From assembly GCF_002117105.1 (NCBI RefSeq), contig NZ_CP019343.1, positions 1,302,001 to 1,366,000 on the forward strand: DNA of 64,000 nucleotides, written 5' to 3'. The notes below the pieces were generated by a model. It searched no databases. It was not told the origin of the DNA and saw nothing but the letters and a program-made list of their open reading frames with translations. A program made the position numbers and the translations under genes. Each line of letters begins with the position of its first letter. Positions within the stretch are counted from its first letter, which is position 1. Below, one piece after another: positions 29,219 to 36,080 of the stretch. This stretch comes from Oceanicoccus sagamiensis (GTDB lineage: Bacteria; Pseudomonadota; Gammaproteobacteria; Pseudomonadales; Dasaniaceae).

Positions 29219-31216
29219 TTAACCCAGTGCGTCTTCAACCGCTTCAACCACGGCATCAACAGTAAAGCCAAAGTGTTCCATCAAGTCTTTGATGGGGGCG
29301 GATTCACCAAAGGTTTCCATACCGACAATGCGACCATCAAGGCCAACATATTTGTACCAGAAATCTTTATGGCCCGCTTCAACAGCAACCCGTGGTAACA
29401 CATTACTAGGCAGCACTGATTCTCTATAGACAACGTCCTGGCGATCAAACACTGAGGTAGAAGGCATAGATACCACACGAATTTTGCGACCCTGTTCTGC
29501 CAATACGGCTTTAGCATCCAACGCTAGCTGCACTTCAGAACCGGTAGCAATAATGATGGCATCGGGGTCAGTGTCGCAATCGCTAAGGATATAAGCACCG
29601 CGAGCCACATTGGCCAACTGTTCTTCGTCACGAGTCTGGTGAGCCAGCCCCTGACGAGAAAAGATTAACGCGGCTGGGCCGTCATTACGTTCAAGCGCTG
29701 CCTTCCAACATACCGCAGATTCAACTGCATCACAGGGGCGCCAGGTATCCAGATTAGGTGTAGAACGCAATGACGTCAGCTGCTCAACCGGCTGGTGAGT
29801 TGGGCCATCTTCACCCAGACCAATCGAGTCATGGGTATAAACAAAAATGCTGCGCTGCTGCATTAATGCCGCCATACGGACAGCATTGCGAGCGTACTCC
29901 ATAAACATCAGGAAGGTGGCACCGTAAGGAATAAAACCACCGTGCAAAGCAATACCGTTCATCATCGCCGACATACCAAACTCACGTACGCCGTAGAATA
30001 AGTAGTTGCCGGAAGCATCGTCGGCAGTCACGCCTTTTGAGCCACCCCAGATAGTTAAGTTAGAGCCGGCTAAATCCGCAGAACCACCCAGCATTTCTGG
30101 TAGCAAGGGGCCGTAGGCGTTTAAGGTATTCTGCGAGGCCTTACGTGAGGCAACCGAAACACCATCCGCTTGTAACTCACGGATATAGGCATCTGCTTGC
30201 TCGGCAAAGTTTTCTGGTAAATCACCACTGAGACGACGGGCAAACTCTACCGCCAGGTCAGGGTGGGCTTCAGCATAGGCATCAAAGCGCTCATTCCACT
30301 GCTGCTCCAGTTGCGCACCTTTATCTTTGGCGCTCCAACCGGCATAAACATCACTCGGCACAAAGAATGGAGGATGTGACCAGCCTAAAGTCTCTCTCAC
30401 CAGATCAATCTCATCAGCACCTAAGGGCGCGCCGTGGCAATCTTCTTTGCCCTGCTTATTCGGTGAACCTTTACCAATAATCGTTTTACAGCAAATCATC
30501 GTAGGCTTGCCGGTTTCGGCGCGGGCTTCTTCTATTGCTGCTTTTATAGCATCGGCATCATGGCCATCGATGGCAGGGATAACATGCCAGCCATAAGCGT
30601 CAAAACGCTTGGGAGTATCATCGGTAAACCAACCTTCAACTTCACCATCGATAGAGATACCGTTGTCATCGTAGAAGCAGATTAATTTACCAAGCCCCAG
30701 CGTCCCGGCCAGTGAACAGGCCTCATGGGAAATACCTTCCATTAAGCAGCCATCGCCCAAAAAGGTATAGGTGTAGTGATCAACTACTTCGTGGCCATCG
30801 CGGTTAAACTGTGCCGCCAGAATCTTCTCGGCAGCAGCCATACCTACAGCATTAGTAATACCCTGCCCTAATGGGCCTGTGGTGGTTTCAATGCCCGGCG
30901 CATAACCATATTCCGGGTGACCCGGTGTTTTTGAGTGCATCTGGCGGAAGTTCTGTAACTCTTCCATCGGCAGCTCATAGCCGCTCAAATGTAGCAGCGA
31001 ATAAATCAACATCGAACCATGGCCATTGGACAGCACAAAGCGGTCTCTATCGGCCCAGTTGGGGTTGGCAGGGTTATGCTGCAGATAATCATTCCATAGA
31101 ACTTCAGCAATATCGGCCATACCCATAGGGGCACCGGGGTGGCCACTATTGGCCTGTTGAACGGCGTCCATACTAAGGGCGCGGATGGCGTTAGCTAATT
31201 CGCTACGAGAGGGCAT
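29219..31216 (-). CDS. tkt: Transketolase
   Basis: A 665-residue thiamine diphosphate enzyme of the pentose phosphate pathway. [22 protein letters not shown] is the start of the family; [15 protein letters not shown] with the following DDNGISIDG binds the cofactor and metal; [15 protein letters not shown] marks the pyrimidine domain. The length is typical. AGGAG lies about ten bases before the ATG. It leads the operon with epd, pgk and fba. Confidence 0.95.
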
Positions 31217-31241
31217 CTATTAAGACTCCTAAAGAGGGGCT

Positions 31242-31265
31242 GGGGAAAAAGGCGGTATTTTCCCC
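31242..31265. other. Hairpin in the tkt leader
   Basis: GGGGAAAA and TTTTCCCC form a perfect eight-pair stem with an eight-base loop, 26 bases before the tkt start codon. A regulatory role is possible but there is no direct support. Confidence 0.35.
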
Positions 31266-31390
31266 TACCCGCGAGCTAACGGCAATCGCTTAGGGCAAAA
31301 AATCCTTGGAAAGCCACTAATCATGGGCATTTCATTGGAATTTGCCCCTACTTGCCGCCCATTTGCTCAGCTCAGGGGGTTGTTTATAAC

Positions 31391-31438
31391 AAATCTATAT
31401 CAAAATATTTTGATATAGATTTGAAGTGCTGCTATTAT
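31391..31438 (+). promoter_or_regulatory. 32-bp palindromic operator and promoter of the SAM-cycle regulator
   Basis: Half-site AAATCTATATCAAAAT (31391-31406) is followed by its exact mirror to 31422, a perfect 32-bp palindrome. TTGATA (31410-31415) within it and TATTAT (31433-31438) are 17 bases apart and form a near-consensus promoter. The operator covers the -35 box, fitting autorepression by the ArsR-type regulator encoded directly downstream. The expected transcription start falls at or next to ATG 31447. Confidence 0.75.
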
Positions 31439-31446
31439 CCTCCGCC

Positions 31447-32448
31447 ATGACAAGCAAATCCACCAACAAGGTTAGCCCTTTGCCCACCGCCGACGCACAG
31501 CAGCAGAACTTACTGATGTTCTGCAAAGCCAGTGCTGACCAGTTGCGTCTGGATATATTAAAGGTGCTGAGCCATGACTCCTATGGCGTGCTGGAACTAT
31601 GCAGTATTTTCGATACCAAGCAGTCGGGTATGAGCCACCACCTGAAAATTCTGGCCAATGCCGGCTTGGTCAAAACTCGCCGCGAAGGCAATACCATTTT
31701 TTACCGCCGCGCCAATCGCAGCAGCAATAACCAGCTCAATGAATTACAGCAGGCCCTGCATCACACCATTGATCAGCAGGCCACCTCGGCTGAACTGCAA
31801 CAGAAAGTGGATGCGGTACAACAGGAACGGGCTGCCAGTTCACAATTATTTTTTACTGAAAACGCCGACCTGTTTAGAGAACAACAAGAACAAATTGCCG
31901 CCTACGAACTTTATGGCCATAACACCATTGATTTAATCAGTAGAAGTATCAATACCCATAATAATGGCATAGCGCTGGAAGTTGGCCCCGGCGAAGGGGC
32001 TTTTTTGGCAGAGCTATCGCCGCGCTTTCAACAGGTTTACGCACTTGATAATGCACAGCAAATGCTGGACAAAGCTGCGCACTTTAGTGAGCAAAGCGCG
32101 CTGTCCAATATTGAATTTATTCATGGTGATACCAAACACGCCCAGGTGCAGGCACTGAATGCCGATTGCGTGGTGATTAATATGGTGCTGCACCATACTC
32201 CCTCCCCCGCTGACATTTTTTACGACATGTCCAAGGCACTAAAAACTGGCGGCCAACTTTTTGTAACGGACTTATGCAGCCATGACCAAAGCTGGGCAAG
32301 AGAGTCCTGCGGTGATGTATGGCTGGGTTTTGAGCCTGAAGACCTAACCCAGTGGGCAGCCGATGCCGGATTTAAAACCGGTGAAAATATTTATTTAGCA
32401 CAACGTAATGGTTTTAGAGTTCAGATTAGACAGTTTATTAAAATTTAA
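31447..32448 (+). CDS. ArsR-family regulator with methyltransferase domain (SahR-like)
   Basis: A 333-residue two-part protein. Residues 1-100 form a winged helix of ArsR type (ADQLRLDILKVLSHDSYGVLELCSIF, then QSGMSHHLKILANAGLVKTR). Residues from about 150 form a class I SAM-dependent methyltransferase fold with ALEVGPGEGAFLAEL as motif I. ArsR-methyltransferase fusions next to metK-ahcY-metF are known as SahR, responsive to S-adenosylhomocysteine. This context fits exactly. ATG 31447 is chosen; it has no ribosome site, consistent with a leaderless mRNA. An upstream GTG at 31426 lies inside the promoter. Confidence 0.85.
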   Translation: MTSKSTNKVSPLPTADAQQQNLLMFCKASADQLRLDILKVLSHDSYGVLELCSIFDTKQSGMSHHLKILANAGLVKTRREGNTIFYRRANRSSNNQLNELQQALHHTIDQQATSAELQQKVDAVQQERAASSQLFFTENADLFREQQEQIAAYELYGHNTIDLISRSINTHNNGIALEVGPGEGAFLAELSPRFQQVYALDNAQQMLDKAAHFSEQSALSNIEFIHGDTKHAQVQALNADCVVINMVLHHTPSPADIFYDMSKALKTGGQLFVTDLCSHDQSWARESCGDVWLGFEPEDLTQWAADAGFKTGENIYLAQRNGFRVQIRQFIKI

Positions 32449-32507
32449 TTTACCTTTTTTAATTTTACTTTTTTACTTTTTTATCGACGACATTAAGAGG
32501 AATTAAC

Positions 32508-33725
32508 ATGTCAGAATATTCAGTTTTCACTTCAGAGTCAGTGTCTGAAGGCCACCCCGATAAAATGGCTGACCAGGTGTCTGATGCCGTATTGGATGCC
32601 ATTATCTGTCGCGACCCGGTTGCCCGTGTTGCCGTTGAGACATTAGTTAAAACCGGTATGACCATTGTCGCTGGCGAGCTAACCACCTCTTGCTATGTGG
32701 ATCTGGAAGATATTATCCGTGATGTAATCACCGGCATTGGCTACGACAGCTCTGAAGTAGGCTTTGACGGCGCCAGCTGTGCCGTACTGAATGCCATTGG
32801 TAAACAGTCTGTCGATATCAATATGGGAGTTGACCGCGCCAAGCCTGAAGATCAGGGTGCCGGTGACCAGGGTTTGATGTTTGGCTATGCCACTAACGAA
32901 ACCGATACACTGATGCCTGCGGCGGTTTACTACTCGCACCGCCTGGTAGAGCGCCAGGCCCACCTGCGCAAAGACAAGGTCTTGCCCTGGTTGCGCCCTG
33001 ACGCCAAATCACAGGTTAGCCTGCGCTATGAAGAGGGCAAGCCTGTGGCCATCGATGCCGTGGTTCTTTCTACCCAGCACGATCCCGATATTTCTTTAGA
33101 TGACCTGCGTGAAGCCGTGCTGGAAAATATCATCCTGCCCGTCCTGCCGGCCGAGTGGTTGCACGAAGGCACGGAATACCATATTAACCCCACCGGTAAC
33201 TTTGTGATTGGTGGCCCTGTGGGCGACTGTGGTCTGACTGGCCGTAAAATTATCGTAGACACCTACGGCGGTATGGCCCGTCACGGTGGTGGTGCATTCT
33301 CCGGTAAAGACCCCTCTAAAGTTGACCGCTCAGCCGCGTATGCAGGCCGTTATGTGGCGAAGAATGTAGTTGCGGCAGGTCTTGCCGACCGCTGTGAAAT
33401 TCAAGTGTCTTACGCGATTGGTGTCGCCGAGCCGACGTCGATAGCCGTCAACACCTTTGGCACCGGTACGGTATCTGACGATGAGCTGATTAAAGCCATC
33501 CGCAAGACCTTTGACCTGCGCCCTTATGCCATTACCACCATGCTGGACCTGCAGCACCCGATGTATCAATTAACTGCTGCCTACGGTCACTTTGGTCGTG
33601 AGCCTTTTGAGCACACCTACAGCTGGACCGACGAGCAGGGCAATGAACAGTCAGACACGTTTACTGCCTTTACCTGGGAAAAGACTGACCGTGCCGATGC
33701 CCTGAAAGCAGCCCTGAACGCCTAA
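32508..33725 (+). CDS. metK: S-adenosylmethionine synthetase
   Basis: A 405-residue enzyme making SAM from methionine and [39 protein letters not shown] (ATP-binding) and [16 protein letters not shown] (P-loop-like) are the family signatures. AAGAGGAA precedes the ATG at good distance. It lies 59 bases after the SahR-like gene and 40 before ahcY, forming one SAM-cycle operon. Confidence 0.96.
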
Positions 33726-33765
33726 GCCCTATTTACCTATACAGAGAAAAACGAAGGAAAAGACC

Positions 33766-35130
33766 ATGACTGATTATAAAGTTGCCGATATCTCATTAGC
33801 CGAATGGGGCCGTAAAGAACTGAATATTGCTGAGACAGAAATGCCGGCGTTAATGGCCCTGCGTGCGAAGTACAGTGCCAGCCAGCCATTGGCGGGTGCC
33901 AAGATCCTGGGTTGTATCCATATGACCATCCAGACCGGTGTATTGATTGAAACCCTGACCGCACTGGGTGCAGAAGTGCGCTGGTCCTCGTGTAATATCT
34001 TCTCGACCCAGGACCACGCGGCGGCGGCGATTGCGGCGGCGGGTGTACCGGTATTTGCCTGGAAGGGTGAGACAGAAGAAGAGTATGAGTGGTGTCTTGA
34101 GCAGACGATTTTAAAAGATGGCCAGCCCTGGGATGCCAATATGGTATTGGATGACGGTGGTGATTTAACCTTAATGCTGCACGAGAAGTACGGCACGATG
34201 TTAGACGCTATCCACGGTATTACCGAAGAGACCACCACCGGTGTACACCGTCTGCAAGAGATGCTGGATAAAGGCAGCTTAAAAGTCCCGGCGATCAATG
34301 TTAACGATTCTGTGACCAAGTCCAAGAACGATAACAAATACGGTTGTCGTCACTCATTAAGCGATGCGATCAAGCGTGGTACTGACCACCTGTTGTCGGG
34401 TAAGAAAGCGCTGGTGATTGGCTATGGTGATGTGGGTAAAGGTTCTGCTCAGTCATTAAGTCAGGAAGGTATGATTGTTAAGGTGACCGAAGTTGACCCG
34501 ATCTGTGCGATGCAGGCGTGTATGGACGGCTTTGAGGTAGTCTCGCCGTATAACGACGGTATTAACACTGGCAAGGTAGAAGATATCAACGTTGCTCTGT
34601 TACAGAATACTGATCTGGTTGTCACCACAACGGGTAACTTCAATGTGTGTGATTCAGCGATCTTGCAGAGTCTGAAGAACGGTGCGGTGGTTTGTAATAT
34701 TGGTCACTTCGACAATGAGATTGATACGGCCTATATGCGTAAGAACTGGAGATGGGACGAGGTGAAGCCTCAGGTTCACAAGGTTTACCGTGATGAGGCC
34801 AGCAACGACCATTTAATCCTGTTGTCAGAAGGTCGATTGGTGAATTTGGGTAACGCTACGGGTCACCCCTCGCGTATTATGGACGGCTCGTTCTCCAACC
34901 AGGTATTGGCGCAGATTTACTTGTATGAGCGCAAATTTGCGGATCTGGAAGCCAATATGAAGGCGAATGCGATTACGCTGGAAGTATTACCGAAGAAGCT
35001 GGACGAAGAAGTGGCAGCGGATATGGTGAAGGGCTTTAACGGCGTGATTACTCAGCTGACACAGGAACAGGCCGATTATATCAATGTACCGGTTGATGGG
35101 CCTTATAAAGTCGAGTCCTATAAGTACTAA
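33766..35130 (+). CDS. ahcY: Adenosylhomocysteinase
   Basis: A 454-residue NAD-dependent enzyme that hydrolyses S-adenosylhomocysteine to adenosine and homocysteine. [17 protein letters not shown], the NAD-binding [13 protein letters not shown] and the C-terminal YKVESYKY ending (LLxxYxY-like) are diagnostic. AAGGA lies before the ATG. No SAH riboswitch is visible in the 40-base gap after metK. A perfect 29-base hairpin follows the stop. Confidence 0.95.
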
Positions 35131-35136
35131 ACCCAT

Positions 35137-35165
35137 GGCTAATTCCCGCTAAGCGGGAATTAGCC
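35137..35165. other. Perfect hairpin between ahcY and metF
   Basis: GGCTAATTCCCGCT and AGCGGGAATTAGCC form a 14-pair stem around a single unpaired base. No T run follows, so it is more likely a 3' stabilising or attenuating structure than a classic terminator. Its TTCCCGC core resembles the GTCATTCCCGC-type repeats elsewhere in the window. Confidence 0.6.
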
Positions 35166-35168
35166 ACC

Positions 35169-35237
35169 GTAGGGTGGATTACAATCCACCGTCCGTAAAC
35201 ACGTTAGTTAAGCAAGGTGGATTATAATCCACCCTAC
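35169..35237. repeat. Paired-palindrome repeat, copy 5
   Basis: Left arm 35169-35190 and right arm 35216-35237, spacer 25 bases. The right arm ends 12 bases before the metF ATG and directly abuts the only ribosome-site-like bases (AGG at 35238-35240). Confidence 0.9.
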
Positions 35238-35249
35238 AGGTTAAAGATT

Positions 35250-36080
35250 ATGAGCGAGAACAAGCGCTTTAGTTTTGAATTTTTTCCGCCCAAGACTGAT
35301 GTCGGCCGGGAAAAATTAGCGACAGTCCGCAAAGAATTAAATCAGTTGGGCCCGGATTTTTTCTCGGTCACCTACGGTGCTGGCGGCTCAACCCGCGACA
35401 ATACCAAAGATATTGTGTTAACCATGACCGACGAAGGTATTTCAACGGCTCCGCATTTATCCTTTGGCGGTGACGATGAAGCCTCAATGCTTGAATTAAT
35501 TACTAGCTATAAAGAGGCCGGCATTAATCGCATTGTTGCTCTGCGTGGTGATATGCCTTCAGGTATGGGAGCACAGCGTTTAATCTATGCGGAAGAGTTG
35601 GTGCAATTTATTCGCAAGCATACTGGTGATCATTTTCATCTGGAAGTAGCTGCCTATCCGGAAATTCATCCGGATGCTGATAATTACGATTCAGATATTC
35701 AATTTCTGAAACAAAAGTTTGATGCTGGCGCAGACAGTGCCATTACCCAGTACTTTTACAATGCCGACGCTTATTTTTATTTTATGGACCAGTGCCAGAA
35801 AATCGGTATCGACAAGCCAATTTACGCCGGCATTATGCCCATAACCAATTATCAAAACCTTGCCCGTTTTTCTAAAAACTGTGGCGCGGAAATTCCTCGC
35901 TGGGTTTGCCAGAAATTGGAAGGCTATGGTGACGATAAAGAAAGCATTGCCGCTTTTGGTACCGATGTTGTGACCAAATTATGCGAACAATTATTGGCGA
36001 ATGGCGCACCAGGCATTCATTTTTATACGATGAACCAGATTGAACCCAATAAAGCGATTTGGAATAATCTCAAACTTTAA
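35250..36080 (+). CDS. metF: Methylenetetrahydrofolate reductase
   Basis: A 276-residue FAD enzyme that makes 5-methyl-THF for methionine synthesis. FSFEFFPPKTDVGREKL is the start, with FSVTYGAGGSTRDNT and LRGDMPSG binding FAD and folate; APGIHFYTMNQIE closes it. ATG 35250 is chosen since an in-frame start at 35217 lies inside the repeat. The gene follows ahcY after a hairpin and a repeat, so read-through decides its co-transcription. A terminator follows. Confidence 0.94.
   Translation: MSENKRFSFEFFPPKTDVGREKLATVRKELNQLGPDFFSVTYGAGGSTRDNTKDIVLTMTDEGISTAPHLSFGGDDEASMLELITSYKEAGINRIVALRGDMPSGMGAQRLIYAEELVQFIRKHTGDHFHLEVAAYPEIHPDADNYDSDIQFLKQKFDAGADSAITQYFYNADAYFYFMDQCQKIGIDKPIYAGIMPITNYQNLARFSKNCGAEIPRWVCQKLEGYGDDKESIAAFGTDVVTKLCEQLLANGAPGIHFYTMNQIEPNKAIWNNLKL

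Follow-up and report, generated by a model that had tools for sequence, protein, structure and literature searches.

The sahR locus

The analyzed window, a 64,000-nucleotide stretch of the Oceanicoccus sagamiensis genome, carries the genes sahR, metK, ahcY and metF on its forward strand, next to a divergently oriented tktA. An intergenic span of 230 bp separates tktA from sahR. The features at the locus are listed below in window coordinates.

29219–31216, minus strand: tktA, divergent neighbour, with its start codon 173 bp from the operator
31390–31423, no strand assigned: operator, a perfect palindrome of 34 bp with halves CAAATCTATATCAAAAT and ATTTTGATATAGATTTG
31410–31415, plus strand: -35 element TTGATA, within the right half of the operator
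31430–31438, plus strand: extended -10 element TGC-TATTAT, with a 17-bp spacer; it aligns with the TGCTAGACT-type -10 of orthologs
31447, plus strand: predicted transcription start at the A of the ATG, or alternatively at G31444 with a 3-nt leader; predicted from the -10 spacing and from order-wide conservation
31447–32448, plus strand: sahR, 333 aa, an ArsR/SmtB helix-turn-helix plus a SAM-methyltransferase-like domain, without a Shine-Dalgarno sequence
32508–33725, plus strand: metK, S-adenosylmethionine synthetase, with Shine-Dalgarno AGAGG at about 32496–32500
33766–35130, plus strand: ahcY, S-adenosylhomocysteine hydrolase
35137–35240, plus strand: strong hairpins between ahcY and metF, a 13-bp perfect stem followed by a REP-like element pair
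35250–36080, plus strand: metF, methylenetetrahydrofolate reductase

The product of the first gene combines an ArsR-type helix-turn-helix (PF01022, HTH_5, residues 31–76) with a methyltransferase-like domain (Methyltransf_11/25, residues 177–273), which is the domain arrangement of SahR. For comparison, relatives were gathered from named genomes and from whole genomes of the host's order, and 93 SahR representatives remained after the proteins had been clustered at 70% identity. Motif I of the methyltransferase-like domain, E178-x-G-P-G-x-G, is invariant across these 93 sequences, and D201 is present in 98% of them.

Of 58 loci, 56 share the gene order sahR-metK-ahcY-metF, and 42 have tkt as the divergent neighbour. 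A previous sequence-only reading of this DNA had proposed that the regulator governs the entire metK-ahcY-metF operon. The conserved gene order speaks for this proposal. Because the ahcY–metF gap contains strong hairpins (folding energy -63 kcal/mol, z -10), full membership of metF in the operon is doubtful, and the gene may be partly uncoupled. No terminator T-run was found in the hairpin region, which is a possible attenuation or processing site. The same gap holds a REP-like palindrome, GTAGGGTGGATTATAATCCACC (window 35168–35238), present in several hundred genomic copies. Matches to this near-palindrome in the genome number 383 in forward and 370 in reverse orientation, and many copies form tandem arrays with spacings of 89, 104, 106, 115, 162 or 213 bp.

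The operator palindrome

The palindrome had earlier been read as a perfect one of 32 bp (31391–31422). Its perfection stands, whereas its length has to be revised, the shorter stretch being nested in the 34 bp at 31390–31423. The inner 20 bp, ATATCAAAATATTTTGATAT (31397–31416), match the SahR motif ATC-N10-GAT, here in the form ATC-AAAATATTTT-GAT, and lie 5′ of sahR, as does the palindromic site of SahR. The window contains a single copy of the 34-bp pattern, and 100 dinucleotide shuffles contain none; in the 4.47-Mb genome, too, there is just one, even when up to 3 mismatches are allowed. The shuffles and the genome-wide uniqueness rule out a chance origin of the palindrome.

When the best upstream operator is taken for each gene, 91 of the 93 ortholog clusters have one (core match of at least 11/14), and it covers or abuts the -35 element. 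The symmetry of the site past the published 20 bp is non-random. At positions 13–16 from the centre, the two outer arms of the same species match each other more often than arms shuffled between species (z 5.9, 2.1, 2.8 and 2.9), and the bases themselves vary among species though they stay symmetric, for example ATC..GAT, ACC..GGT and AGC..GCT. Two origins of the long outer arms are both possible, namely an extended contact of the dimer or protein with DNA, and replication-driven perfection of quasi-palindromes by template switching. Some relatives reach perfect palindromes of 48–54 bp (loci L056, L102 and L064); the usual ArsR site is shorter.

Promoter and predicted transcription start

The palindrome overlapping TTGATA and the TATTAT that follows at 17 bases, both pointed out in the sequence-only reading, are present as described. 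The TATTAT hexamer occupies positions 31433–31438 and is preceded by TG. With the sahR ATG at 31447, its A is the ninth base past the -10 element (8 nt between), and near the usual start position there is just one further purine, G31444, the sixth base. Therefore, transcription is expected to start at 31447 or no more than 3 nt upstream of it. No Shine-Dalgarno sequence was found upstream of the sahR ATG, in agreement with the earlier remark that this gene lacks a ribosome site; metK, by contrast, has one. An in-frame GTG at 31426 was considered as the sahR start and rejected, since it sits 5′ of the -10 element and so would fall outside such a transcript.

Conservation of the ATG position across the order

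In the relatives, promoters were picked on the quality of the -35 and -10 elements only, without reference to the ATG, and start codons were located afterwards. A scorable promoter was available for 86 of the cluster representatives. An ATG lies 6–9 nt past the -10 element in 72 of the 86 and is in frame in all 72; at 36 other tested positions ATGs amount to 0.92 per position, with 11 of 33 in frame (Fisher p about 1e-49). If the interval is set at 4–10 nt past the -10 element, 73 representatives qualify, and the codon is ATG in every one of them. At the same loci, the median anti-Shine-Dalgarno energy is +0.2 kcal/mol for sahR versus -5.8 kcal/mol for metK; in this respect sahR shows the AUG start codon without Shine-Dalgarno that characterizes leaderless mRNAs. 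The base composition around the start is also distinctive. C is found at -2 in 74% and at -1 in 79% of cases, making CC usual before the sahR ATG, and the A content between the -10 element and the ATG is 8% versus 26% upstream. Since A is scarce in this interval, the most natural purine to start from is that of the ATG itself.

Of the 34 sampled families, 29 include one or more members predicted to be leaderless. The operator itself occurs in two registers about 12 bp apart, with the -35 element either within it (25–30 nt from operator end to ATG) or just downstream of it (38–41 nt). The distance from the -10 element to the ATG is equal in both registers. Where the operator ends just upstream of the -35 element, steric repression is less obvious.

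Longer leaders are present in 13 of the 86 clusters; thus, the leaderless feature is not indispensable. On the protein tree, the leadered members require 10 changes, at least 7 of which are forced by well-supported branches, and longer leaders appear to have arisen about 7–10 times. The leadered members have a median Shine-Dalgarno energy of -3.5 kcal/mol versus +0.2 kcal/mol for the leaderless ones (p 8e-5). Family f8 provides a natural contrast to the leaderless members. Its three representatives (L189, L191 and L192) have a strong Shine-Dalgarno sequence of -6 to -8 kcal/mol, a longer leader in place of the leaderless start, and GTG or TTG start codons. Cellvibrio, too, offers such a contrast, with a predicted leader of about 22–25 nt. 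Taken over the order, the leaderless state is common, probably old and, judging from the tree, seemingly losable.

The picture is mixed among distant SahR homologs from other orders and classes. In about a dozen of 27 such homologs, 2–10 nt separate the end of the operator from an in-frame start, and among the rest some leaders carry Shine-Dalgarno-like sequences. These comparisons suggest that outside the order the leaderless rule is a tendency only.

The expectation that transcription begins at the ATG had first been raised from this one DNA. The distance between the -10 element and the ATG, conserved and always in frame, adds weight to it: a leaderless start is predicted for sahR, and the comparison of relatives supports it strongly.

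Alternative explanations

The nearest competitor of a start exactly at the ATG is a very short leader of 1–5 nt, for example from G31444, which would use the same 5′-end route of translation and be nearly leaderless. A purine is found at the sixth position past the -10 element, that of G31444, in 24 of 73 relatives, but in 46 of the 73 there is no purine from position 6 up to the A of the ATG. We regard the short leader as unlikely, though worth keeping in mind.

It is also conceivable that the main mRNA comes from an additional promoter 5′ of the operator and has an ordinary leader, the operator-overlapping promoter being minor. The 230-bp gap between tktA and sahR has room for it. However, the promoter described above is the sole promoter-like match in the 500 bp from 31200 to 31700 (0.5 expected), no conserved sequence was found 5′ of the operator among the relatives, and the ATG would have no Shine-Dalgarno sequence even on a longer mRNA. 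All this makes a second promoter of this kind improbable.

Still less probable, to the point of being hardly credible, is that the ATG near the -10 element is merely a promoter or initiator feature and that SahR is translated from a downstream codon with its own ribosome site. The first 25 residues of SahR are poorly conserved, and this sahR has in-frame ATG or TTG codons further downstream. On the other hand, only one third of the conserved ATGs would then be expected in frame, not 72 of 72. Moreover, 39 of the 73 representatives have no alternative start codon 3′ of the promoter, and just 3 of the 73 offer another start codon preceded by a good Shine-Dalgarno sequence. On these tests of frame and uniqueness, a downstream Shine-Dalgarno start for SahR was rejected.

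Finally, SAH riboswitches do act on ahcY and metF in bacteria related to this one (PMC4239095). Control of the operon in cis by a SAH or SAM riboswitch, in whose leader RNA the palindrome would form a hairpin, nevertheless has practically no chance of being correct and was rejected, given that the palindrome is located 5′ of the -10 element, that the protein-type motif is also conserved at other places in the genome, before metH and metK, and that no Rfam riboswitch, SAH riboswitches included, matched between 31000 and 36500.

SahR-like sites elsewhere in the genome

The sequence-only reading had suggested searching for the half-site upstream of other methionine genes, and such sites do exist. 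SahR-like operator copies are located between metH and nfuA (genome position 3628445), 5′ of another metK-ahcY pair (688730) and, on the upstream side, near a paralog of the regulator (678494). Together with the operon order, these sites cover the SahR regulon of sahR, ahcY, metK, metF and metH.

The two metK-ahcY copies, at window positions 32503–35130 and genome positions 685994–688616 (locus L136), are 99.5% identical over 2628 nt. The second copy, which has its own SahR-like operator, is about 8 kb from the regulator paralog (48% identical). Genes nearby resemble those for a Rieske oxygenase, MetE and adenosine kinase (names assigned by eye), and the locus is perhaps a second methyl-transfer module. 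The paralog (2460–2710 in L136; genome 678460–678705) shows the arrangement TTGAAG-17-TAGACT-8-ATG without a Shine-Dalgarno sequence, and by this arrangement it, too, looks leaderless. Its SahR-like site is about 190 bp upstream and not over the -35 element.

A model of operon control

We consider it highly probable, on the strength of the sequence comparisons, that the control region of the SahR operon combines SAH-relieved autorepression at the -35 element with transcription that starts at the ATG or no more than about 3 nt from it and, as a result, a leaderless sahR. At low SAH, a SahR dimer on the palindrome would cover the -35 element and block a strong sigma-70 promoter. A build-up of SAH would lead to its binding by the methyltransferase-like domain and to the release of SahR. 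The genes sahR-metK-ahcY, and possibly metF, would then be transcribed from the A of the sahR ATG or from within about 3 nt of it, SAH would be hydrolysed, methyl groups recycled, and methionine and SAM rebuilt. On this mRNA, sahR would be translated from the leaderless end, and metK and the later genes through normal ribosome-binding sites. We infer binding of SahR at the operator; a response of this SahR to SAH is likewise presumed from the family and from the conserved ligand motif. The likely purpose of the arrangement would be a low dose of repressor relative to enzyme from a single mRNA. Low translation of sahR compared with metK is presumed here by analogy with acuR, for which it has been measured.

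Leaderless initiation requires intact 70S ribosomes and fMet-tRNA, and the status of ribosomes and initiator is tied to SAM-dependent rRNA methylation and to one-carbon units. A more speculative idea, to which we give only a slim chance, is that the leaderless start itself may be a sensor. Translation of SahR would then track methylation capacity, so that the SAH-driven loop acting on transcription would be joined by a second one acting on translation. The idea rests on a review (PMC7949028) that connects one-carbon metabolism with rRNA methylation and initiation. If true, translational sensing would account for the retention of the leaderless start across the order.

Relation to known systems

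Leaderless mRNAs are exceptional in Proteobacteria and are usually noticed strain by strain. Here, one leaderless start is predicted to have been kept ahead of a methyl-cycle repressor in 29 of 34 sampled families despite operator shifts. With such broad retention, it lends itself to asking what leaderless initiation is selected for, a low repressor dose or a response to ribosome state. The order-wide retention also opens the prediction to checking in well-studied relatives, for example in Pseudomonas start-site maps; in P. aeruginosa, sahR is PA0547, beside metK. One such map of this species lists 60 of 2117 transcription units as having no 5′ leader, in a text that does not name sahR (PMC3460626).

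The regulator, its motif, its autoregulation and leaderless autorepressor operons (cI, tetR and acuR) are already known. The regulator and half-site proposed in the sequence-only reading are real, but they have been described as SahR (Leyn et al. 2014, PMC4239095), and the operator and autoregulation are of a known kind. SahR is an SAH-responsive member of the ArsR family with a 20-bp palindrome, of which ATC-N10-GAT is common to SamR, and with a core regulon of sahR, ahcY, metK, metF and metH; among Gammaproteobacteria it was found in two groups, Pseudomonadaceae and an Oceanospirillales group (PMC4239095). For Desulfovibrio and Ensifer, there are reports of binding, SAH response and autoregulation (PMC4239095, PMC8877191), and the increased activity of the sahR promoter upon sahR deletion in Ensifer supports autoregulation (PMC8877191). 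The locus studied here agrees with the described regulon in protein family, in the ATC-N10-GAT palindrome and in the set of genes controlled, and differs in the extent of symmetry, about 32–34 bp with covarying outer arms instead of the 20-bp motif. Leaderless transcripts are not mentioned in PMC4239095. What is new, as far as the literature searched goes, is the conserved leaderless start predicted for sahR; no paper joining sahR and leaderless was found in the search, and the candidate matches, judged by title, looked like the surname Sahr.

SamR of Xanthomonadales is distantly homologous to SahR and has a palindrome related to that of SahR, but its motif is 24 bp long and its methionine regulon is larger and lacks ahcY (PMC4239095). 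Elsewhere in Gammaproteobacteria, we found only distant SahR homologs, with 25–29% identity.

Among operons headed by a leaderless autorepressor gene, the closest precedent studied by experiment is acuR-acuI-dddL of Rhodobacter sphaeroides, in which the mRNA was mapped to the A of the repressor AUG (Sullivan et al. 2011, PMC3017554) and translational fusions showed that AcuR is translated less than the downstream genes (PMC3017554). As in the sahR operon, the autorepressor gene comes first, an inverted-repeat operator overlaps the promoter, and the later genes have Shine-Dalgarno sequences. The protein and effector are unrelated, AcuR being a TetR-family regulator of catabolic genes with acrylate as inducer. 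Similarly, lambda cI (from PRM) and tetR of Tn1721, as cited in PMC3017554, have leaderless mRNAs that encode self-regulating repressors needed in small amounts; these, however, are genes of a phage and a transposon, whereas sahR stands, order-wide, at the head of a core metabolic operon.
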